A stretch of DNA of 64,000 nt from the NCBI RefSeq assembly GCF_029962835.1, contig NC_080582.1:15632032-15696031 (forward strand), written 5' to 3'. The DNA is from Magnolia sinica. Its lineage: Eukaryota > Streptophyta > Magnoliopsida > Magnoliales > Magnoliaceae. Shown one piece after another: positions 20,182-64,000 of this stretch. The notes under the pieces are model-generated. The model was not told where the DNA came from and made no database searches. It saw nothing but the letters and a program-made list of their open reading frames with translations. Numbering within the stretch: the stretch's first letter is position 1; each line of letters begins with the position of its first letter. The translations under genes were made by a program, and so were the position numbers.

Positions 20182-20395
20182 TATTTTCATAAAAAAAACA
20201 CTAACGTCCGTGACTTAAAAATCGCTTTTGGTCAGGTAAGTTTCCAGGGGAGGAAAAAAAAGGGCATTGTACGGACTCGTCTGCAATGCTAATTTTTTCC
20301 TTGGAAAATTGATGAGGGTGTGTTGCCCGGTTCATTGCCACCGTTACTTACGAGACAAGGAATTCGAATTTTGCAGGAGAGAACCAGCGTAGACA

Positions 20396-23175
20396 ATGGC
20401 AGCTTCTTGGGATGATGATGATCGACGGTGCAAAGGAGGAAGAGGAGAGATTGTGAGCCCTTTGTCACAACGCATGAGGCAACAAATATGGGATTGCTTG
20501 AGAGATGACAAGATTTCGGTATTCTCAGTATGGGGGTGGCAGGGGGTAGGGAAGTCACGGATTGTGAGACAGGTGGTCGCGGAAATGGAGGAATCTGGAG
20601 AATCTAGCCGACTGTTTGATGTGATCATACGAGTAAAAGCACCAGGGATCGAGAGTCTTGGAGAAAAGATGCTGGAGAAATTCAGAGAAGAATTCGACCA
20701 TTTGCAGGACCAGATTACAAGATACGGCAGATTAATATTTAAGCTTGAAATTGAGCTTTATAAGAAGATACGGGTTTTAAAGATGTTGGATGCAAAGGGG
20801 AGAAGGAATCGATTAATGGAGGTACAGATGGAAATCAAGGAGGCATTGGATATCCCAGAGTCCATACAATTCTCTACAGCTGCTAAGCGTATCAAGGATA
20901 AGTTAAGCGGCCAAAGGTTCCTCCTCATCTTTGAAGATGTTTGGGAAAGCTTTGACTTGCAAGAGATGGGAGTTCCAATCACAGCCCCTACCACCACCAT
21001 TGGCAGCAAAGTCGTCATCACCACTCAATCCCATGAAGTTTGTTCCAAAATGGGAGCCCAATTAAAAATCATGTTGGAGGAGTGGTCTAAAGAAGATGCC
21101 TGGGATTTTTTACAGGAAGAGACAGCTGACGTAGCTGCCCGCATTGGTTTCTCAACTGGAGACATGGTCTTGAATTGCTTTTCTTACGTCTCCTTGTTCT
21201 GTCGAAATGGATGCTCAATCGATCGAGATTTCTTGATAGAAGAGTATTGGAGGTCAGAGGGTTTTTTAGATGGGTCCTTCAATGAAGAGGAGAATAAAGA
21301 AGCAGCTTTCAAGAAAATGGGGAATCTACTGCTCAAAGAGCTGGCAGAGAGATGCATGGTGTTATTGTCCCTGGCGTCATCAAACCCAAATTACCTAACT
21401 CTCTTTCTAGAGCAGTCTTCAGAAAATTTAGCGCCTTGGGACTCTCATCCTAAGGAAGCGGAATTTAACGTCTGGCTACAAAAGCAGTTTACATTGGAGG
21501 AATCTTCAGGAGGACCATATCATGTGGATATGAATTCTCACGTGAGGCAAGTGATTGATTCTCAAAAGTTACTAGTGAAATACAACTTGGACAGGGAAGA
21601 ATCATGCCAATGGATCTCATTATCCCACAATCAGGTAGAAACACTCCAATTCAGCTCTCCCAATTGCCCTTTTATGTCGACGTTGTTGCTTAACGATAAC
21701 GATCGTTTGCAAGAAATCCTAGACAGTTTTTTCAAGAATATGACCAGACTCCGAGTTCTCGACCTTTCTTCTACAAGCATCACTTCCCTGCCATCGTCCA
21801 TGTCCTGTCTTCATGAATTACGGTTATTGAAGCTTCGAAGCTGCTGCAAGCTAGAGTCTCTTCCAGCCTCTTCTTAAAGGATATGCAGAAGCTCGAGATC
21901 CTCGATCTCCATCAAACTCCCCTGACAAAGATGGTGGAAGTATCCTTCCACAACATGCATAGCCTCCGAAGTCTCGATATCTCTGGTGCCTGCAACCTCA
22001 GTCGGCTCTCGCTCAAGGGTTGTCGCTCTCTATTGAGACTGGTCAGCCCAGATAAACTTTCAAAACTTGAGTCGCTTGATCTTTCAGGCACGAGAATTGA
22101 AGAGCTTCCACACGGAATTTTCAATATTACTAACATGCGGTGCTTGGACCTGTTGGGAATGGAGCATCTAAAGAGGGTTGACTGGAGAAAGGTTGATAGG
22201 CTTCCAGAAAAATTAAATTGGGATCGATGGGGCTTGGACTTGCTGCGTGAACAGCTCCAAGACAGCAGCATATATCGCATCTCGGTCAGTGATGCTAGTG
22301 TTTTTGAGACTTTGGACCAAAGCTCAAAACTATGGAAATCCTGCTTTCTAAAATTTTATTTCTTGGTCTGTCCCTGCGAGGGAGGGCCCAAGGATATATT
22401 TGCTTGTTTTAAAAGAAACCGATTTCTCTACCAACATATTTATATTTGATTTGAGCAGTCTTTGAGTTATGAAAGACGGTTGGAGGTTTGCGGTGGTAAG
22501 AATTCCCTATACGGTATTAGAGGATTGCTCTCGGTGATAGAATTCCTTCGTTTAAATGGCAATGTGTTCATTAAGGCATTGTCTAATCTAGGCATGAAGA
22601 TGGACCACCTTAAAGAATGTTGGATTGAGAAATGCCATCAGTTGGAGTATCTGTTCGTAGGAGGGACGTACGATGATGCGGCAATCTGTTTAGAAAATCT
22701 AAGGGTGTCGGATCTTGCCAAATTAAGGAAAGTGTGCCGAGGGGAGTTAGGAAGAGGGAGCTTCGCATGTTTAAAGAATATATATTTAGAATGTTGCCCG
22801 AAGCTCATCAACTTCTTCTCTTCTAGTATTCGGTTACAGAATCTTGAATTACTAGAAATAAAATTCTGTTGTAGACTGGAGAAGGTCTTTGAAGACGAAG
22901 GTGTGGCGGGGCAAAATGCATTTCCACAACTAGTCGATTTACGTCTTTGGGATCTACGCAAACTCAAAGGCATTTGCGGTGGGCACTTGCCGATGCTGAA
23001 GAAGTTGAAGATTCGAGAATGCCCTCTGCTGGAGAAGCTTCCTCTCCATAACACAAATGCTTCTACATCAGAAGTCGAGATCCAAGGTGAGCTGACATGG
23101 TGGGAAAGCATTAAATGGGAGGGCAACATCAAGCCAAGCAACATCCATTTCAAAGAATGGTGTCCATCAAGTTAG
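20396..23175 (+). pseudogene. NLR1: RPS2-like NB-LRR resistance gene, broken copy
   Basis: Intronless NB-LRR. Starts at ATGGCAGCTTCT with only about 45 residues before the Walker A motif GWQGVGKS. Then come RNBS-A (LFDVIIRVKAP), kinase-2 (FLLIFEDVWE), RNBS-B (GSKVVITTQS) and RNBS-D (CFSYVSLFC). There is no GLPL segment, and VDMNS stands where MHD is expected. Leucine-rich repeats follow to about residue 900. Two lesions break it: a 2-nt insertion in a TCT run just before 21877 (frame resumes at 21883), and a CGA-to-TGA nonsense codon ending the second segment at 22449. NLR proteins sense pathogen effectors and trigger cell death; this copy is unlikely to do so whole, although the first 493 codons (NB plus first LRRs) stay open and could yield a truncated protein. 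Its sister is NLR3: same start, same downstream minisatellite. Confidence 0.85.
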
Positions 23176-34981: not shown

Positions 34982-37955
34982 CCTTCCATTCACTATCCGC
35001 AGCTCCAGGTGGATGATCGGGAAAGGAGAGGCAAACCTCTGGAGGGAAAACTGACTAGGAAATGGGCTACTTGCATAAGTGGATGGCGTTAGAGTTCCGG
35101 TTGATGTCCTTGAAAGTAAAAGACCTTCTCACTCCTAATGGATGGAATTTAGCCCTGTTAGCAGAACATGTGTGTTCCCATCTTCTTGCTAGGATGGCAA
35201 TGAGCAAAATAAGCATATCAGATGACGAAGATGAGCTGATCTGAACATCATTTCCATCACAAAAATTCACTATTAAATCAGCATGGAACGTTTTATGTAA
35301 AGTCATAACCAGGATTGGGCAAAATGGGTGTGGCAAAGCTTATCCCGCCGAAAATATCCATGCTGGCATGGAAGGCGTTGAAAAGAGCGATCCCAGTCGA
35401 AAAGGTAGTGCAACGCCTTGGCGTTCACACATTCTCAAAATGTGTATGCTATGAGTTGCACTATGGGCAACCCTCTTAGGGAATCCAACCATCCTTCTCA
35501 TTACCAGTCACGGAGCAACATAACAACTCTGATGTTGTTCGTGTCATCCCCGTTCCAACACGCAGAGCGGACAACACCTCTGAAGGAGTCAACAAAGAAA
35601 CACAACCCATCCCAGTTGCGCCTCCTTTCCAGATCAGTAGTTCATCCTTAGGGATTGATGAAGAATCCATCGATCACCTTTTTTGCAAAGGTAGACTAGC
35701 AAAAGAGGTGTGGTCTTTCTTCAGCCACATTTTTTTTTTTTTTAATGTTCACGAAGGTCATATCCACTCTCTAGAGCAAAGGCTAAGCATATGGACCAAC
35801 AAAGCCAGTGATAGCTTGAGATTTCTCAGACTACGAGGCCTATCCCCAAGCATCATTTTGTGGGAAATCTGGTTGGCTAGAAATGCGAATAGATTTGATA
35901 ACAAACCCATCATTGCATTAAAAGTTCTTGCTAGAATCAAAAGCTGGCTTGGGGAGTTATCTCACCAAATGCCAGAGGACGGTTTCTGCCCTTTCCTTCA
36001 ACAGGTGGCCCTCCAGGTGCTGGATAACACATTCACACAGGGAAGGCGAAGGAAACCTCACTATCTCATACGGACTCCGCCGATAGAGGGATGGGTGAAG
36101 CTCAATGTAGATGGATCGTCTCAAGGAAACCCACGAGAGGGAGGAGGAGGATGGGGGAATTTGTAGGGATCATCAAGGCAACCTCATTTTCGAATTCCAC
36201 CATTACTTTGATTGAGTTACAAACACGGAAGCGGAAGCGCGAGCAGTTTTGAAGGGGATCAAGCGATGTTAATCCCGAGGGCTTCAAAGGATCATCATTG
36301 AATCAGATTTCAAAATCATTTTCAGAAGCATTACAAATCCGCAATCAGTGCCTCATTGGAAGATTTGGTATGATATAAAAGTGATCTGTCAGGAAATTGG
36401 AGGTATTAACCACCAGTTCAGTCATATTTTCAGAGAATCCAACTCGATAGCGGATTGCTTAGCCGCTTAGGCAGCAGTGGAGCCCCGGACTGGCTGTACA
36501 GGCTCCGCTCATCCCTTCCAAGGGAGGCGAGAGGTATGTTTATGATGGACAAGGCAGGCTTGGGAACCTTTCGCTGGGGATAGCGATCTCAGCCGTGGAG
36601 TCTTGTTTCCTTGCCCTTTTTCTGCCCTGTACTGCAATTTGTCATGGCTAAAATAAGGAATGATTCCCTAAGGCTGGGCCGGATGTTGTTTTGTTTTGTA
36701 GCACCTACAGCAGGCGTCTCCCAGCTGCCCAGCTGTTTAATTTCTCCGGTCATTTGATTAGTAATCCCGTGAAGAAATTATAGATTGGTTATGTTGATCC
36801 CTGTCTCAAGCTCCTACCAGTTGCCTCTTTCAACGAAGATCTCGGTGCCAGTCTCGAACCCTGAGGTGGTTCTAGTTATTCGTTCGGATTGCTCTTTGCA
36901 TATATCCCGTAAGCTGCTGTATCTAGCCCTGTTGTTTGGTTAAGGAATGTTGTGATAAGTAATTGTATGTTGTTTTGGGGAAGGTTGTTGGTTGGTGGCT
37001 ATATGTTGTGCTTTGTTGTTTGGGAGTTGTTGAGTAGTTTGGTGGGTGGAGTTGTTGTTCTTTGCTGGAGGCAGTGATCTGTGCAGTTGGTGTTTTGGGA
37101 GGCTGCTGCATGTTTGGTTTTGTGTTGTGAGTGGTGGTCTGTGGCTGCTGGTTTAAACACAAAGTGCATCAGGTGGAGCTAGAGAGATATGATGAGCTGT
37201 TGAGTGCTTGGCTGGCCCCAGTGTTTTGTTCATGCCGTCTGCTGGAGCAGGGGTCATTGGGCTAGGCTGAGAAGGTGGCTCTATAGGTCTGGTGGGCTGT
37301 CAGCTAGTTTATGGGCAGTAGTTGTGGGCTATCAGCTGGTTTGGGAGTGGGCTGTAAAGTGGGGTAAAATGTCGGTAGTTGCTTTCTATTAGAAATAAAT
37401 AGTTTAGTGAGGTGTAGAGTGGAAGTTCGGAGGGCTTCGGTTGATTATAGGTGGCAATGGGAAAGAATGCAGAGGCAGAGTGAAGCATTTTGTGTTGGTT
37501 CTCAACATTTTGGTAACGGGAAGCTGTTTCTTGGTGGGGTTGAGTCTATATATGATATCATTTGCTGCAAAACAAAAAAAAGAAAAGAAAAGAAAAGAAC
37601 AGAAAAACGATCCCCAATTGATTTTGGGATATCCCCATCAAAAAAAAAGAAAAAAAGAAGCACCTTGTATTTATAGACTTGGTAGCAGCAACTAGCTGTG
37701 GGAATGATTGAATCCCAATCAGAAGAGGAGCAGAGAATGTCTCTTTGTTGCAGGTAGGCGAGGCTGGTGTGAATCTTTATTTTCTTCAGGGTGGCTATGG
37801 CATTTTGTTTTCTTCTTTCGTTTTGCTGATTAAGAGTTATGATAGGTGAGGCCCAATGTTTTTGTGGAGCCTACCCAAAAGTCCTGTTTGTACATCCTCT
37901 ATTCATATTAACAAAGTTATAGGGGGTGTGATCCCACTTTCAGGAAAAAAAAAGG

Positions 37956-47402: not shown

Positions 47403-50230
47403 TCACTTGGTTGACGGACACCATTCTTTGAAACGGATGTTGTGTGGCTTGACACTACCTTCCCATTTTATGCTTTCCCACCATTTCAGCTCACCTTCAA
47501 TCTTGACTTCTGCTGCAGAAGCATTTGTGTTATGGAGAGGAAGCTTCTCCAGCAGCGGGCATCCTCGAATCTTCAACTTCTTCAGCATCGGCAAGTGCCC
47601 ACCACAAATGCTTTTCAGTTTGCGTAGCTCCCAAAGACACAAATCAACTAGCTGTGGAAATGCATTTTGCCCTGCCAGGCGGTCTTCTTCAAAGACCTTC
47701 TCCAGTCTACAGCAAAATTTTATTTCAAGTAATTTGAGATTCTGTAACTGAATGCTCGAAGAGAAGAAGTTCACGAGCTTCGGGCAACATTCCAAATATA
47801 TATTCTTTAGGCATGCGAAGCTCCCTCTTCCCAACTGCCTCCGGCACACTGTTCTTAATTTGGCAAGATCCGACACCCTTAGATTTTCTAAACAAACTGC
47901 TGCATCAATGTCTGCCATTCTTCCAACGAACAGAATCTCCAGTTGATGGCATTTCTCAATCCAACATTCTTTAAGGTTGTCCATCTCCATGCCAAGATTG
48001 GACAGTGCCTTAATGAACGCATTGCCATACAAATGAAAGAATTCTATCACTGAGAGAACCCCTCTAACACCGTCTAGGGAATTCTTACCACCGCAAACCT
48101 CCAGTTGTCTTTCATAACTCGAAGACTGCTCAAATCGAGTATAAATATGCTAGTAGAAAAATCGGTTTCTTTTAAAATCACGATATCTATCCTTGCGCCC
48201 TCCCTCGCAGGGACAGACCAAGAAATGGAATTTTTGAAAGCAGGATTTCCACAGTTTCGAGCTTTCGTCCAAAGACTCAAAAACACTTGCATCACCGACA
48301 GAGATGTGACGACTGCTGCTGTCTTGGAGCTGCTCATGCAGCAAGTTCAAGCCACATCGATCCCAATTCAAGTTTTCTGGAAGCCGATTTATCTTTCTCC
48401 AGTCAACCGTCTTGAGATGCTCCATTCCCAACAGGTCCAGGCACCGCAAGCTAGTCAGATTGAAAATTTCGTGTGGTAGCACTTCCATTTTCGTGCCTGA
48501 AAGATGAAGTGCCTCAAGTTTTGAATGTTTATTTGGGCTGACCAGTTTCACTAGAGAGCGACAACCCTTGATCGAGAGCCTGCTGAGGTTGCAGGCACCT
48601 GAGATGTTGAGACGTCGGAGGCTTTGCATGTTGTGGAAGGATACCTTCACCATCTTCGTCAAGGGAGTTTGATGGAGATCGAGGATCTCGAGCTTCTGCA
48701 TATCCTTTAAGAATGAAGGAAGAGCCTCTAGCTTGCAGCAGCTTTGAAGCTTCAACAACCGTAATTCACATAGGCAGGACATGGATGAGGGCAGGGAAGT
48801 GATGCTTGTGAAAGAAATGTCGAGGACTCGGAGTTTGGTCATGTTCTGGAAAAAAGCATCCGGGATTTCTTGCAAGCGGTCATTATTGTTGAGCAACAAT
48901 GTGGAGAGAAGAGGGCAATTTGGAGAGCGGAATGGGAGTGTTTCTACCTGATTATTGGATAATGAGATCCATTGGCATGATTCTTCCCTATTTAAGCTGT
49001 ACTTCATTAGGAACGTCTGAGAACCTGAGAATTCATATCCACATGATATTGTCCTCCTGAAGATCCCTCCATTGTAAATTGCTCTTGTAGCCAGTCCTTA
49101 AATTCCCCTTCCATAGATTGAGCTTTTGATGAATCTGCCCAATAATATTCATCCCACCTCTGTAGATAGGAGTGTAGCCAATTTGGGTTTGATGACACCA
49201 GAGACAGTAGCACCATGCATCTCTCTGCCAGCTCTTTGAGCAGTAAATTCCCTAATCTCTTGAAAGCCGCTTCTTTATTCTCCTCCTCATTGAAGAATCC
49301 ATCTAAAAAGCCCTCTGACCTCCAATACTCTTCTATCAAGGAATCTCCATCGATGGAGCCTCCATTTCGACAGAGCAAGGAGATGTAAGAGAAGCATTTG
49401 AAGACCATGTCTCTGGTTATTGAGAAACCAATGCTGGCAGAAACATCCGCTGCCTCTTCCTGTAAAAAATCCCAGGCGTCTTCTTTAGACCACTCCCCCA
49501 CCCTGATGTTTACTTGGGCTTTCATTATGTTACAGACTTCTTGGGATTGAGTTGTGATCACCACTTTGCCATCGATGGTGAAAGCAGGGGCCATGGCTGG
49601 AACTCCCATCTCTTCCAAGTTGATGCTTTCCCAAACATCTTCTAAGACGAGGAGGAACCTCTGGCCGCTTAGCTTAGCCGAGATTTGTTTAGCAGCAGCG
49701 TAGAAGTCGATGGACTTTGGGATATCCAATGCCTTCTTCATTCCCATCTGTACCTCCATTAAACGATTCCTTCTCCCCTTTTCATCCAACGCCTTTAAAA
49801 CCCGTATATGGCTATACAACTCCCAAGTACTCAATCTTTGGTCCTTTTTTGTCAGACGGTCCAATTCTCCTCTGATTCTCGCCTGCATCTTCTCAGCAAG
49901 ACTCTCGACTCCCGGTGCTCTTACTCGTATGATCACATCAAACAGACGGCTAGATTCTTTGGATTCATCCATCACCGCTGCAACCACCTGTCTCATGATC
50001 CGTGACTTCCCCACACCCTGCCATCCCCAAACTGAGAACACTGAAATATTGACATCTCTCAAACAGTCCCATATCTGTTGCCTCATGTGTCATGACCAAG
50101 CACTCACAACCTCTCCTCCTTGTCTGAGCCGTCGATCATCACCATCCCTGGAAGCTGCCCCTTCCTCTGCACGATCACTTTCTGCAAAATCGAATTCCTT
50201 GTTTGGTAAGGGTGGAAATGATGAGAGCAT
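47403..50230 (-). pseudogene. NLR2: RPS2-like NB-LRR gene, broken copy
   Basis: Same family as NLR4. The start equivalent to NLR4 is ATGCTCTCATCA at 50230. Motifs are P-loop GWQGVGKS, kinase-2 FLLVLEDVWE, RNBS-B GKVVITTQS, RNBS-D CFSYISLLC and VDMNS in place of MHD, with no GLPL segment. Lesions: a TGA (from CGA) at the WSR position shortly before the P-loop; a 16-bp deletion just after VDMNS near 49030-49040 that shifts the frame; and a TAG (from CAG) at the FFYQ position near 48150. The segment 50086-49007 stays open from an internal Met (MRQQIWDC) and could encode an NB-only protein of 359 aa. The C-terminal LRRs end in the family tail (RFKEWCPSTK). Flanks and start mark it as the sister of NLR4. 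Confidence 0.85.
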
Positions 50231-55913: not shown

Positions 55914-58647
55914 TCACTTACTTGATAGACAACATTCTTTGAAACGGATGTAGCTTGGCTTGATACTGCCCTCCCATTTTATGTTTTCCCACCATTTCAG
56001 CTCACCTTGGATCTCAACTTGTGTTGCAGAAGCATTTGTGTTATCGAGAAGAAGCTTCTCTAGCAGTGGGCATCCTCGAATCTTCAACCTCTTCAGCATC
56101 GGCAAGTGCCCACTGCAAATGCTTTTCAGTTTGCGTAGCTCCCAAAGATATATATCAACTAGCCGTGGAAATGCATTTTGCCCCACCTCGCTGTCTTCTT
56201 CAAAGACCTTCTCCAGTCTACAACAGAATTTTATTTCAAGTAATTTGAGATTCTGTAACCGAATGCTCGAAGAGAAGAAATTGATTAGCTTCGGACAACA
56301 TTCCAAATATATATGCTTTAGGCATGCGAAGCTCCCTCTTCCCAACTTCCCCCGGCACACTGTTATTAATTTGGCAAGATTGGACACCCTTAGATTTTCT
56401 AAGCAAACTGCTGCATCAATGTCTGCCATTCTTCCAACGAACAGAAGCTCCAATTGATGGCATTTCTCAATCCAGCATTCTTTAAGGTTGTCCATCTCCA
56501 TGCCAAGATTGGACAGTGCCTTAATGAACGCATTGCCATACAAATGAAAGAATTTTGCCATAGAGAGAACCCCTCTAACACCATCTAGGGAATTATTACC
56601 ACCGCAAACCTCCAGTCCTCTTTCATAACTCAAAGACTGTTCAGATTGAGTATAAATATGCGGGTAGAGAAATTGGTTTCTTTTAAAATGACCATATCTA
56701 TCCTTGCGCCCTCCCTTGCAGGGACATACCAAGAAGTGGAATTCTAAAAAGCAGGATTTCCACAGTTTCGAGCTACGGTCCAAAGATGAAAAAACACTGG
56801 CATCACTGACCGAGATATGACGTCTGCATCTGTCTTGGAGTTGTTCATGGACCAAGCCCTAGCCACATCGATCCCAATTCAATTTTTCTGGAAGCCGATC
56901 TATCTTTGTCCAGTCAACCGTCTTGAGATGCTCCATTCCCAACAGGTCTAGGCACTGCATGCTAGTCAAATTGAAAATTTGGTGCGGAAGAACTTCCAAT
57001 TTCGTGCCTGAAAGATCAAGTGCCTCAAGTTTTGAAAGTTTATCTAGGCTGGCCAGTGTCATTAGAGATCGGCAACCCTGGAGCGAGAGCCGACTGAGGT
57101 TGCAGGCACCTGAGATGTCGAGGCGTCGGAGGCTTTGCATGTTATTGAAGGATGCCTCCACCATCTTTGTCAGGGCAGTTTGATGGAGATCAAGGATCTC
57201 AAGCTTCCGCATATACTTTAAGAACGTAGGAAGACCCTCTAGCTTGTGGCAGCTTTGGAGCTTCAACAACCGTAATTCACAAAGGCAGGATATGGAGGAT
57301 GGCAGGGAAGTGATGCTTGTAGAAGAAAGGTCGAGGACTCAGAGTCTGGTCATGTTCTTGAAAAAACTGTCTGGGATTTCTTGCAAGCGATCATTATCAT
57401 TAAGCAATAACGTCGAGAGAAGAGGGCAGTTTGGAGAGCTTAATTGGAATGTTTGTACCTGATTGTGAGATAATGAGATCCATTGGCATGCTTCTTCTGC
57501 ATCCAAGTTGTTTTTCACTAGGAACGTTCGAGAACCAATAACTTTCCTCACATGAGAATTCATATCCACATGATATTGTCCTCCTGAAGATTCCTCCATT
57601 GTAAATTGCTCTTGTAGCCAGTTCATAAATTCTGCTTCCTGAGGATGATTGTCCCACGGGTATAAATTTAGTTTTTTACTCTGCTTTATAAAGAGAGAGA
57701 GGAAATTTGGGTTTGATGACGTCAGGGACAATAGAACCATGCATCTCTTCGCGAACTCTTTGAGCAATATATTCCCCTGTCTCTTGAAAGCCACTTCTTT
57801 ATTCTCCTCCTCATTGAAGAATCCATCTAAAAAGCCCTCCGACCTCCAATACTCTTCTATCAAGGAATCTCGGTCGATGGAGCTTCCGTTCTGATACAAA
57901 AAGGAAACGTAAGAAAAGCATTTAAAGACCATGTCTCTGTTTGAAAAACCAATGCTGGAAGCCACATCAGCCGTCTCTTCCTGTAAAAAATCCCAGGCAT
58001 CTTCTTCAGACCACTCCTCCACCTTGATCTTTAATTGAGCTCCCATTTCATAACAGACTTCATCGGATTGAGTGGTGATGACGACTTTGCTGCCACTTGT
58101 AACCGAAACTCCAATATCTTTCAAGTCAAAGCTTTCCCAAACATCTTCAAAGATGAGGAGGAACCTTTGGCCGCTTAACTTATCATTGATAATCTTAGTA
58201 GTTGTAGAGATTTGTATGGACTCTGGGATCTCCAATGCCTTCTGGATTCCCATCTGCACCTCCATCAACTGATTCCTTCTCCTATTTGCAACCAACTGGT
58301 CGAAAGCATATTCACCATGGAAGCAATACCAACGCTGCATAAATTTTCCTTTTTCTTTGATTCTATACGTCATTATCTTCTCTCCAAGACTCTCGATCCC
58401 CGGCGCTCTTACTCGTATGATCACATCAAACAGACGGCTAGATTCTCCGGATTCCTCCATTGCGGCGACAACCTGTCTCACGATTCGTGACTTCCCCACT
58501 CCCTGCCGTCCCCATACTGAGAACACTGAAATATTGTCGATCTCTCAAGCAATCCCATATCCGTTGACTCATGCGTTGTGACAAAGCGCTCACAACCTCT
58601 CCTCCTCCTTTGAGCCGTCGATCATCATCGTCCCTAGAAGCTGCCAT
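55914..58647 (-). pseudogene. NLR3: RPS2-like NB-LRR gene, broken copy
   Basis: Start ATGGCAGCTTCT at 58647, as in NLR1. Motifs are Walker A GRQGVGKS (Trp changed to Arg), kinase-2 FLLIFEDVWE, RNBS-B GSKVVITTQS, RNBS-D CFSYVSFLY and VDMNS for MHD, with no GLPL segment. Lesions: a 1-nt insertion around 58541 just before the P-loop (protein shifts frame after about 36 codons); a TGA (from CGA) at the TRLRVLD position near 57340; and a TAG (from TTG) near 56856. The C-terminal LRRs remain open from 56855 to the stop at 55914. Because the first lesion is near the start, little protein would be made. Sister of NLR1 by start and downstream minisatellite. Confidence 0.85.
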
Positions 58648-60410: not shown

Positions 60411-63212
60411 TCACTTGGTTGACGGACGCCATTCTTTGAAACGGATGTTGTGTGGCTTGACGCTGCCTTCCCATTTGAAGTTTTCCCACCATTTCAGCTC
60501 ACCTTCAATCTTGACTTCTGCTGCAGAAGCATTTGTGTTATGGAGAGGAAGCTTCTCCAGCATCGGGCATCCTCGAATCTTCAACTTCTTCAACATTGGC
60601 AAGTGCCCACCACAAATGCTTTTCAGTTTGCGTAGCTCCCAAAGACATAAATCAACTAGCTGTGGAAATGAATTTTGCCCTGCCACGCTGTCTTCTTCAA
60701 AGACCTTCTCCAGTCTACAACAGAATTTTATTTCAAGTAATTTGAGATTCTGTAACTGAATGCTCGAAGAGAAGAAGTTGATGAGCTTCGGGCAACATTC
60801 CAAATATATATTCTTTAGGCATGCGAAGCTCCCTCTTCCCAACTGCCATCGGCACACTGTTCTTAATTTGGCAAGATCAGACACCCTTAGATTTTCTAAA
60901 TGGACCGCCACATCTGCCCTTCTTCCGACAATTAGATACTCCAATTGATGGCATTTCTCAATCCAGCATTCTTTAAGGTTGTCCATCTCCATGCCAAGAT
61001 CGGACAGTGCCTTGACAAACACATTGCCACGCAAATGAAAGAATTCTGTCACTGAGAGAACCCCTCTAACACCGTCTAGGGAATTGTTACCACCGCAAAC
61101 CTCCAGTCGTCTTTTATAATTCAAATACTGCTCAAATCTAGTATAAATACGCTGGTAGAAAAATCGGTTTCTTTTAAAATGAGCATATCTATCCTTGAGC
61201 CCTCCTTCGCAGGGACAGACCAAGAAATGGAATTTTAGAAAGTATGATTTCCACAGTTTTGAGCTTTGGTCCAAAGACTCAAAAACACTCGCATCACCGA
61301 CTGATATGTGACGTCTGCTGCTGTCTTGGAGCTGTTCATGCAGCGAATTCAAGCCACATCGATCCCACTTCAAAATCTCTGGAAGCCGATCTATCTTTCT
61401 CCAGTCCACCGTTTTGAGATGTTCCATTCCCAACAGGTCCAGGCACCGCATGGTTGTCAAATTGAAAATTTCGTGTGGGACCTCTTCCAATTTCGTGCCT
61501 GAAAGATCAAGTTCCTCAAGTTTTGAAAGTTTAACTGGGCTGACCAGTCTCACTAGAGAGCGACAACCCTTGAGTGAGAGCTGGCTGAGGTTGCAGGCAC
61601 CTGAGATGTTGAGACGCCGGAGACTTTGCATGTTGTGGAAGGATACCTCCACCATCTTCGTCAAGGGAGTTTGATGGAGATCGAGGATCTCGAGCTTCTG
61701 CATATCCTTTAGGAATGCAGGAAGAGACTCTAGCTTGCAGCAGCTTCGAAGCTTCAACAACCGTAATTCACACAGGCAGGACATGGACGAGGGCAGGGAA
61801 GTGATGCTTGTGAAAGAAATGTCGAGGACTCGGAGTTTGGTCATGTTCTGGAAAAAAACATCTGGGATTTCTTGCAAGCGATCATTGTTTTTGAGCAACA
61901 ATGTTGAGAGAAGAGGGCAATTTGGAGAGAGGAATGGGAGTGTTTCTACCTGATTATTGGATAATGAGATCCATTGGCATGATTCTTCCCTATCTAAGTT
62001 GTACTTCACTAGGAACGTCTGAGAACCAATCACTTCCATTACCTGAGAATTCATATCCACATGATATTGTCCTCCTGAAGATCCCTCCATTGTAAATTGC
62101 TCTCGTAGCCAATCCATAAATTCCCCTTCCATAGATTGAATCTTGGATAGGTCTACTGGAAAATATTGTTCCGCCCACCTATTTAGATATGAGGTTAGGT
62201 AATTTGGGTTTGATGACACCAAAGACAATAACACCATGCATCTCTCTACAAGCTCTTTGAGCAGTAAATTCCCCAATCTCTTGAAAGCTGCTTCTTTATT
62301 CTCCTCATTGAAAAATCCATCTAAAAAGCCCTCCGACCTCCAATACTCTTCTATCAAGGAATCTCCATCGATGGAGCATCGGTTTTGACAGAGCAAGGAG
62401 ACGTAAGAGAAGCATTTGAAGACCATGTCTCCGGTTATTGAGAAACGAATGCTGGCAGCAACATCGGCTGCCTCTTCCTGTAAAAAATCCCAGGCGTCTT
62501 CTTTAGACCACTCCCCCACCCTGATGTTTACTTGGGCTTTCATTTCCTCACAAACTTCTTGGGATCGAGTCGTGATCACGACTTTACTGCCGCTGGTGAT
62601 AGCAGAGGCCATGACTGGAACTCCCATCTCTTTCAAGTTGATGCTTTCCCAAACATCTTCTAAGACAAGGAGGAACCTTTGGTTGCTTAGCTTAGCCGAG
62701 ATTTGTTTAGCAGCAGCGTAGAAGTGCATGGACTTTGGGATATCCAATGCCTCCTTGATTCCCATCTGTACCTCCATTAAACGATTCCTTCTCCCCTCTT
62801 CAATCAACCCCGTTAAAAGCTGTATCTGCAACTCATATGAATGTTTCAATTCTTCTCTGATTCTCGCCTGCATCTTCTCAGCAAGACCCTCGACTCCCGG
62901 AGCTCTTACTCGTATGATCACATCAAACAGACGGCTAGATTCTCTGGATTCATCCATCACCGCTGCAACCACCTGTCTCATGATCCGTGACTTCCCCACA
63001 CCCTGCCATCCCCAAACTGAGAACACTGAAATATTGTCATCTCTCAAGCAATCCCATATCCGTTGCCTCATGCGTCGTGACCAAGCACTCACAACCTCTC
63101 CTCCTTGTCTGAGCCGTAGATCATCACCATCCCTGGAAGCTGCCGTCTCCTCCGCACGATCACTTCCTGCAAAATCGAATTCCTTGTTTGGTAAGGGTGG
63201 AAATGAGAGCAT
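60411..63212 (-). CDS. NLR4: RPS2-like NB-LRR protein lacking GLPL/ARC1, the only intact copy (933 aa)
   Basis: Single open frame of 933 codons. Residues 68-75 are Walker A (GWQGVGKS), 95-105 RNBS-A (LFDVIIRVRAP), 179-189 kinase-2 (RFLLVLEDVWE, LED for LDD), 208-217 RNBS-B (GSKVVITTRS), 234-251 RNBS-C and 264-299 RNBS-D (CFSYVSLLC ... WRSEGFLDG). The 60-70 residues normally holding GLPL between RNBS-C and RNBS-D are absent. Residues 385-389 read VDMNS where VKMHD is expected. LRRs run from about 412 to 930, ending in the RPS2-like tail (LKKLKIRGCPMLEKLP ... WWENFKWEG). No coiled coil, TIR or RPW8 domain precedes the NB region. Start choice: ATG at 63212 gives MLSFPPLPNK; the ATGGCAGC start of NLR1/NLR3 is ACG here; Met48 is an alternative. 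NLRs detect pathogen effectors in the cytosol or at membranes. With key nucleotide-switch motifs altered, a sensor or decoy role is inferred, not shown. Confidence 0.85.
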   Translation of the reverse strand: MLSFPPLPNKEFDFAGSDRAEETAASRDGDDLRLRQGGEVVSAWSRRMRQRIWDCLRDDNISVFSVWGWQGVGKSRIMRQVVAAVMDESRESSRLFDVIIRVRAPGVEGLAEKMQARIREELKHSYELQIQLLTGLIEEGRRNRLMEVQMGIKEALDIPKSMHFYAAAKQISAKLSNQRFLLVLEDVWESINLKEMGVPVMASAITSGSKVVITTRSQEVCEEMKAQVNIRVGEWSKEDAWDFLQEEAADVAASIRFSITGDMVFKCFSYVSLLCQNRCSIDGDSLIEEYWRSEGFLDGFFNEENKEAAFKRLGNLLLKELVERCMVLLSLVSSNPNYLTSYLNRWAEQYFPVDLSKIQSMEGEFMDWLREQFTMEGSSGGQYHVDMNSQVMEVIGSQTFLVKYNLDREESCQWISLSNNQVETLPFLSPNCPLLSTLLLKNNDRLQEIPDVFFQNMTKLRVLDISFTSITSLPSSMSCLCELRLLKLRSCCKLESLPAFLKDMQKLEILDLHQTPLTKMVEVSFHNMQSLRRLNISGACNLSQLSLKGCRSLVRLVSPVKLSKLEELDLSGTKLEEVPHEIFNLTTMRCLDLLGMEHLKTVDWRKIDRLPEILKWDRCGLNSLHEQLQDSSRRHISVGDASVFESLDQSSKLWKSYFLKFHFLVCPCEGGLKDRYAHFKRNRFFYQRIYTRFEQYLNYKRRLEVCGGNNSLDGVRGVLSVTEFFHLRGNVFVKALSDLGMEMDNLKECWIEKCHQLEYLIVGRRADVAVHLENLRVSDLAKLRTVCRWQLGRGSFACLKNIYLECCPKLINFFSSSIQLQNLKLLEIKFCCRLEKVFEEDSVAGQNSFPQLVDLCLWELRKLKSICGGHLPMLKKLKIRGCPMLEKLPLHNTNASAAEVKIEGELKWWENFKWEGSVKPHNIRFKEWRPSTK

Positions 63213-64000
63213 GGGCCAGGCACGTTCTGCGCCCTATAAATTTTAAAGCCGGCTTGGGCTCAAGTCATTTTACACCGATCCAGCACTTTGGGTTTTCTTC
63301 TCTCTAGCAAAGCAACAAAATTTATTGAAATGTGTGAAAATTACGTGGGCCCACAACGATGTATTTCTTACATCCACACTGTTCATCCATTTTTTCGGAT
63401 CATTATGAAAAACAGGGCAATCTCCACTGCGAGGTTAAATGGGAAGTAAGCCTACGGTTGGTGCTAGAAATGTTTCAACGGTGGTATGGTCCACTTGAGC
63501 TTTGGATGTACCTCATGTTTTGGCCCATGCTATGATATTATCTACAAATATTGATGAACAGTGTGGATTTAACACAAAAAAATCATAGTGGGGCTTGGAA
63601 AAGTTTCACACTTAAAACTTGTGTTGTGTAGCACGCAATCTATCCAAGGAGAGAGATCCTGCTCAATTTTGGTCTGTCCTAAAATGATCTCAAATAAGGG
63701 ATGGACGGGGTGGATTTCTCATGAACATCAAGGTGGGCCCCACCTAGAGTAACGAGAAATGATGTGGAGAGTGCGGATTGTCTGTGTTGAAGACAGTAAA
63801 ATTCAGTGCGGCCGCTTCTGATTGATCCACGTCATCGCCGGTGACTCCACCTAACAACACGCTAGCTGGATTTCTCTCTACCCATAGATTGCGTGATACA
63901 CGAGGTGACTTTTAACGTCCACAATGATTTATGTTTTAGATCCAAACAGATTATTAGTTTTTACAGATCATTCTAAAAGAATGAGCCATAAAACAAGGCA
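63213..64000. repeat. NLR4 upstream flank with MITE pieces, cut by window end
   Basis: 63213-63640 matches the upstream regions of NLR2 and of the 39.4-kb relic. 63680-64000 matches 51660-51970. A CCTATAAATTTTAAAG stretch at 63231-63246 lies too close to the start to be an obvious TATA box. Partial foldback arms lie at 63345-63600. There is no other gene. Confidence 0.6.

Follow-up and report, generated by a model that had tools for sequence, protein, structure and literature searches.

Can a plant immune receptor that lacks part of its nucleotide-binding module persist as a maintained protein, and what could such a protein do? This question was raised by NLR4, a nucleotide-binding leucine-rich repeat (NLR) gene located in a stretch of 64,000 nucleotides (hereafter the window; C10:15632032-15696031) of the 1.84-Gb Magnolia sinica genome. 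NLR4 consists of a single uninterrupted frame on the minus strand (60411-63233), of 933 codons when counted from the ATG at 63212. Pfam analysis returned nucleotide-binding (NB-ARC/AAA) and leucine-rich repeat (LRR) families alone, LRR_RPS2 included. The parts of NLR4 are given below, together with their state in the 13 intact copies of the family that were identified in the genome.

60414-63212, minus strand: NLR4, intact NB-LRR frame of 933 codons, with no coiled-coil (CC) domain found and without ARC1/HD1
62988-63011, minus strand: P-loop GWQGVGKS, kept in 13/13 intact copies with S or T as last residue
62796-62864, minus strand: hypervariable segment HV1, an in-frame insert in the nucleotide-binding domain (NBD) after RNBS-A
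62649-62672, minus strand: kinase-2/Walker B motif LLVLEDVW, in which the first D is replaced by E, as in 13/13 intact copies
62415-62468, minus strand: junction, with the loss of about 65 HD1/ARC1 residues, GLPL among them
62112-62219, minus strand: hypervariable segment HV2, an insert in the winged-helix domain (WHD); these limits were set by a pattern, those used in the analysis being a few codons narrower
62046-62066, minus strand: YHVDMNS, the sequence most likely to occupy the place of the lost MHD motif, with uncertain alignment
60414-61979, minus strand: LRR region, matched by Pfam as RPS2-like and conserved between copies, with its start read from the translation

The junction of NLR4, ADVAASIRFSITGDMVFK, lies between RNBS-C and CFSYVSLLC (RNBS-D). 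The distance from ADV, at the end of RNBS-C, to CF, in RNBS-D, was 15 residues in NLR4 and 14-15 residues in all 13 intact family members, versus 78-82 residues, GLPL included, in 8 out of the 9 canonical CC-type NLRs (CNLs) examined from the same genome; the ninth, L004, was missed by the ADV-to-CF pattern, and the GLPL segment was visible in its alignment. Approximately 64-67 residues, corresponding to the HD1/ARC1 helices with GLPL, are missing from the family, and GLPL was found in none of the 13 intact copies. Consistently, the Pfam NB-ARC match ended at profile position 169-174 of 248 across NLR4 and the three other copies in the window, NLR1 to NLR3 (171 in NLR4). Moreover, the family profile aligned to 9h2l, a solved CNL and the best match of the family in the Protein Data Bank (PDB), up to residue 330, and resumed weakly (3.4 bits) at residue 416. 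The original prediction, made from the window alone, had described a passage of about 15 residues between RNBS-C and RNBS-D in NLR4, some 65-70 additional residues including GLPL in canonical RPS2/RPS5-type proteins, the same junction in NLR1 to NLR3, and a 933-codon frame retained despite the loss; each of these points was borne out, with junction coordinates correct to about 10 bases. An intron hiding the segment was ruled out for this junction, because each of the 13 intact copies has an uninterrupted frame across it, and in canonical CNLs of the genome the segment is part of a single open frame.

To place the loss in the history of the family, we searched the M. sinica genome with a 227-residue NLR4 query; 150 of the 326 candidates were scored, and the resulting counts are lower bounds. 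At least 98 matches were obtained, with 41 of those listed spanning the junction, and in all 41 the matched DNA had no room for the ARC1 segment, which ruled out a local deletion confined to NLR4. Forty of the spanning matches listed were located in a 1.4-Mb cluster (C10:15.25-16.67 Mb) and one on scaffold C1. No close relative with GLPL was present among the own-genome matches listed: the best GLPL-bearing match to the junction query exhibited 45% identity over 71 residues, the rest being lower, and canonical CNLs aligned to query position 82 at most, i.e. to the junction. A tree of the 31 loci matching at least 201 of the 227 query residues contained four clades within the C10 cluster, plus the C1 copy. 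Because all cluster clades and the copy on another scaffold share the loss, it preceded the duplications, as had been proposed; the GLPL-bearing close relatives that would speak against this order were not encountered among these matches. Intact frames were observed in 13 of the 31 loci (six among L009-L019, six out of eight in the L028 clade, and the C1 copy) and ran 894-955 codons; for 12 of them, the final 19-26 codons fell beyond the locus ends. None of the six members of the NLR1 clade (L024-L027, L029, L031) was intact.

Selection on the shortened protein was estimated by pairwise codon maximum likelihood, as the ratio of non-synonymous to synonymous rates (omega), with the NB and WHD parts scored minus the HV loops. 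Omega for NB and WHD was 0.46 both between NLR4 and L036 (twice the log-likelihood difference, 2dlnL, 12.6) and between NLR4 and the C1 copy (2dlnL 13.5). It was below 1 in all 15 pairs tried, significantly so in 11. The LRR yielded 0.43 and 0.52 for the same two NLR4 comparisons, respectively, and all codons outside HV1 and HV2 gave 0.45 in five independent pairs (2dlnL 95.3). Whole-gene omega was 0.85, without significance, for L028-L032 and L036-L037. When the NLR4 frame was subjected to simulated neutral change (random change at 0.05-0.17 per site, indels not counted), none of 500 runs remained stop-free at each of four divergences, and approximately 6-18 stops were expected in neutral copies. 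Since NB/WHD divergence after the loss was constrained and neutral frames were never stop-free, the shortened protein has been maintained in some lineages, under purifying selection since the shared loss. The selection that had been anticipated for the shortened protein is thus supported by the 13 intact loci out of 31, the 15 pairs and the simulations, and the absence of purifying selection that would have argued otherwise was not observed, omega being 0.45 outside the loops. From its sequences, the NLR4 family appears to consist of maintained NB-LRR proteins related to RPS2/RPS5-like CNLs, which lost HD1/ARC1 before their spread.

Among the features of a canonical CNL, the P-loop and kinase-2 motif were found, but not the CC, HD1/ARC1 with GLPL, or MHD. 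The family corresponds to a noncanonical NL protein, composed of an NB part and an LRR without CC, TIR, or RPW8. The P-loop was GW(Q/N)GVGK(S/T) in all 13 intact copies, and E replaced the first D of kinase-2 in all of them. The P-loop GKT of L019 fell outside the P-loop pattern, and its alignment row was like those of the other copies. MHD was not recognisable in the 13 intact copies, the nearest sequence being (D/Y)(M/V)(N/D)S (VDMNS or variants), for which the alignment is uncertain. In 12 out of the 13 intact copies, the frame started approximately 45-90 residues before the P-loop. We also considered a CC encoded by an upstream exon. The first 170 residues encoded by 11 canonical genes were compared with 2.4-5.9 kb upstream of nine family loci, with the 4.7 kb preceding NLR4, and with the entire window; no convincing match emerged in the stretches searched (best E 0.13 in both cases), a far exon lying outside the reach of the search. 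In canonical NLRs, the NBD, ARC1, and ARC2 jointly hold ADP, in a pocket whose motifs include GLPL and MHD (PMC9519389, available part).

Variation within the family was concentrated in two loops; neither this pattern nor the lack of a recognisable CC and MHD had been part of the original prediction. In alignments with canonical CNLs, HV1 was an in-frame insert after RNBS-A and HV2 a lengthened stretch of the WHD; HV1 length was strongly variable among copies, HV2 length less so. Eleven of the 13 intact copies were scanned, the near-duplicates L015 and L034 being left out. Amino-acid change in a sliding window peaked twice, at NLR4 codons ~105-135 and 325-355, and was low throughout the LRR (non-synonymous difference, pN, of 0.03-0.13 per window). 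An entropy of at least 1.5 bits was reached by 54 of the 859 scored columns (11 paralogues, not alleles), with 30 in HV1/HV2 (51 scored), 14 in the LRR (503 scored), and 10 elsewhere; only 4 of the 114 exposed LRR strand positions attained this value. By region, NG86 omega ranged from 1.1 to 2.5 in the loops, from 0.2 to 0.8 in the NB and WHD cores, and from 0.37 to 0.45 in the LRR. The piece preceding the LRR gave 4.9 within clade B, a value disregarded at 0.2 synonymous changes per pair, and 0.3-0.5 elsewhere.

In five phylogenetically independent pairs, picked from an IQ-TREE tree, omega was 2.23 for HV1 and HV2 together (2dlnL 11.1) and 4.86 for HV1 (2dlnL 15.7). A second alignment of the same pairs yielded 1.96 for both loops (2dlnL 8.3). 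A second set of six pairs yielded 1.94 (2dlnL 10.2), with 1.95 for HV2 (2dlnL 5.2); a seventh pair was left out of this set, L035 not being among the 19 open NB frames. Omega for both loops remained at 1.84-2.11 when each pair was dropped in turn. Fixing divergence from the flanks produced larger values (4.62 for both loops, 2.67 for HV2), and the free fit was preferred as more cautious. Control codons that had been deliberately misaligned exhibited a significant omega above 1 in 2 out of 100 runs, each of which belonged to the 40 with at least 60% of columns misaligned. Tryptophan and tyrosine together made up 8.6% of HV1 and 10.7% of HV2, versus 3.2% of the LRR. In two trios of canonical CNLs used as a control (L002-L004 and L051-L053), omega was higher in the LRR than in NB-ARC (0.61 versus 0.35 and 0.41 versus 0.22), the reverse of where the NLR4 family varies.

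From established NLR biochemistry, we infer that a protein without HD1/GLPL, CC, and MHD would not cycle between ADP and ATP forms, switch or signal alone, and could not build a channel of its own; it would thus be a non-switching decoy or sensor that depends on a helper or on a second NLR. In this view, an invariant partner would be bound by the conserved LRR, and the two variable loops of NB/WHD would face rapidly changing ligands; effectors from pathogens or herbivores that target NB-ARC domains are the most likely candidates. NL proteins can play a part in immunity even when the N-terminal domain is missing, as described for RMES1A/B (PMC12513424, available part) and NRG1C (PMC13133928), and a nematode effector binds the NB-HD1 hinge of NRC2, which indicates that NB-ARC domains are attacked (PMC10156107, available part). 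For these reasons, a non-switching, helper-dependent decoy or sensor, with a variable surface on NB/WHD, is the reading that we tentatively favour for NLR4; a decoy, an adaptor or a helper-dependent sensor had been suggested originally. It is more doubtful whether the lineage, having dropped the CC and HD1, also shifted its variable recognition surface from the LRR to aromatic-rich NBD/WHD loops, on a static NB-fold scaffold with a partner-docking LRR. No canonical NLR partner was found within the window, as the best 30 matches of 10 canonical NB-ARC stretches all fell inside NLR1 to NLR4.

The same features could be explained by a regulatory role similar to that of NRG1C, in which a shortened NLR dampens immunity by competing with full-length NLR partners or by capping them, and the loops follow changes in these partners and not in pathogens. 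A protein with no CC found and no HD1 has no signalling part of its own, its LRR is conserved, and N-terminally shortened NL proteins with negative regulatory roles are known (NRG1C; PMC13133928). However, such regulators are usually few and conserved, whereas this family comprises dozens of copies with fast-changing loops, and no full-length close relative appeared among the matches listed, the best one bearing GLPL being the 45% match over 71 residues; we consider this role unlikely. Retention of a nucleotide switch, with NBD and WHD binding nucleotide, the loops replacing the HD1 contacts, and the LRR recognising ligands, seems very improbable: although all 13 intact copies retain the P-loop and Walker B-like residues and the NB core is under purifying selection, the canonical pocket motifs GLPL and MHD (PMC9519389, available part) are either absent or cannot be recognised, and variation is concentrated outside the LRR.

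It is also improbable that the cluster is simply decaying, function having been lost with ARC1, the intact frames being survivors or partly products of gene conversion, and the loops unconstrained linkers. The 0/500 open frames at each divergence, against the ~6-18 stops expected under neutrality, and the omega significantly below 1 after the loss, including in the remaining NB/WHD, argue against decay, as do the omega above 1 in HV1, the in-frame changes in loop length, and the same architecture in an unlinked intact copy. Decay would nevertheless fit the 18 broken loci out of 31, an omega (~0.5) that is not very low, synonymous divergence (dS) lower in the LRR than in NB in most deep pairs, as expected from gene conversion, and an HV2 that alone is compatible with an omega of 1 in the main pair set. 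Several of these observations also weigh against the decoy or sensor that we favour. The broken loci include three of the four in the window and all six of the NLR1 clade; omega is moderate at ~0.45-0.5, and it reached 0.85 or more, without significance, in close pairs. HV2 taken alone did not reach significance in the main pair set (omega 1.17, 2dlnL 0.3; 1.24 in the second alignment), the HV1 alignments hold indels, and variation was scored among paralogues, not alleles. Aromatic residues are also common in the WHD (W, Y, F, and H: 13.1%, versus 12.1% in HV1), and two AlphaFold2 models built from window-only rows had mean pLDDT confidence scores of 37.0 and 40.7, too low to place the loops.

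With RPS2/RPS5-type CNLs and 9h2l, which we take to be of this type from its match to the family, the NLR4 family shares the NBD motifs up to RNBS-C, RNBS-D, and an RPS2-like LRR (Pfam LRR_RPS2); it differs from RPS2/RPS5-type CNLs by the lack of a detected CC, of HD1/ARC1-GLPL, and of a clear MHD, and by two extra variable inserts, the LRR not being the variable part. The grass noncanonical NLRs RMES1A/RMES1B and BPH40 are likewise NL proteins without an N-terminal domain, found in tandem clusters, and their NB part is not expected to function in the canonical manner (PMC12513424, available part). However, in RMES1 the P-loop GKT is changed to AAS and entropy is higher in the second LRR, whereas the family has GVGKS/T and varies in the NBD and WHD; the text available from the same source does not state a loss of HD1. 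An RMES1/BPH40-like identity was ruled out by the intact P-loop, which is not (A/G)AS, and by the variation outside the LRR (14 of the 503 LRR columns variable). NRG1C has also lost its N-terminal domain and acts on other NLR complexes, but belongs to an RPW8-type lineage and is not described as a large diversifying cluster (PMC13133928).

The threshold for highly variable NLRs (hvNLRs) is an entropy above 1.5 bits at more than 10 positions of a near-allelic series (PMC12513424, available part). According to the part of PMC8226289 at hand, their high-entropy patches include bulky aromatic residues, and their variable residues lie mainly in the LRR in all 30 examined, with some NB-ARC sites (RPP1, RPP8); in the NLR4 family, 30 of the 54 variable columns lie in the two NB/WHD loops. 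A survey of seven magnoliid genomes, Liriodendron included, also reported large CNL clusters in which most genes are without one or both terminal domains; GLPL is counted there among five conserved NBS motifs, and no class without GLPL is described in the part available (PMC8724549). Searches of the open-licence literature aimed at ARC1/GLPL loss or at variation in the NB part revealed no such family, a result that argues only weakly for its absence. NB-LRR proteins that lack an N-terminal domain are numerous, and most of them await an explanation (PMC13133928); a family that has in addition lost HD1 but stays intact would offer a natural test of NLR-like function minus the nucleotide switch. 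Should ligands be contacted by the two loops, the family would depart from the rule that the LRR is the main site at which the specificity of plant NLRs evolves, and would provide compact, non-autoactive scaffolds for receptor design.

NLR4 is the only intact copy in the window, NLR1, NLR2, and NLR3 each carrying frameshifts and/or stops. Their parts are as follows.

20393-23172, plus strand: NLR1, broken (frames 20393-21877, 21817-22449, and 22450-23175)
20678-20797, plus strand: NLR1 HV1
21125-21175, plus strand: NLR1 junction without ARC1
21374-21472, plus strand: NLR1 HV2
47406-50089, minus strand: NLR2, broken (frames 49007-50089, 48150-49097, and 47403-48149)
49778-49879, minus strand: NLR2 HV1
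49397-49450, minus strand: NLR2 junction without ARC1
49094-49198, minus strand: NLR2 HV2
55917-58544, minus strand: NLR3, with in-frame stops (frames 57339-58544, 56859-57338, and 55914-56858)
58284-58373, minus strand: NLR3 HV1
57921-57971, minus strand: NLR3 junction without ARC1
57621-57722, minus strand: NLR3 HV2

Elsewhere in the family, HV1 was nearly identical among copies of the NLR1 clade, in contrast to other clades. The unlinked copies on C1 (3151833-3160565; L040 and L057) form a pair, one intact (894 codons) and the other broken. Two-gene blocks in opposite orientation, L014/L032 (minus strand) and L015/L034 (plus strand), were observed at C10:15.25 and 15.53 Mb, approximately 260-280 kb apart with a dS of ~0.011-0.012; this repeat reflects either recent inverted duplication or an artefact of assembly. 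Moreover, five NBD-only relatives exhibited frames of the same length, 239 aa (L055, 939-1655, and C10 15353296, 15748837, 15923681, and 16258949); in L055, the frame ends before RNBS-C and is followed downstream by a frame that, by eye, is RNase H-like. Finally, a 228-aa frame in the window (35480-36166, plus strand) resembled, by eye, part of a non-LTR (long terminal repeat) retrotransposon.

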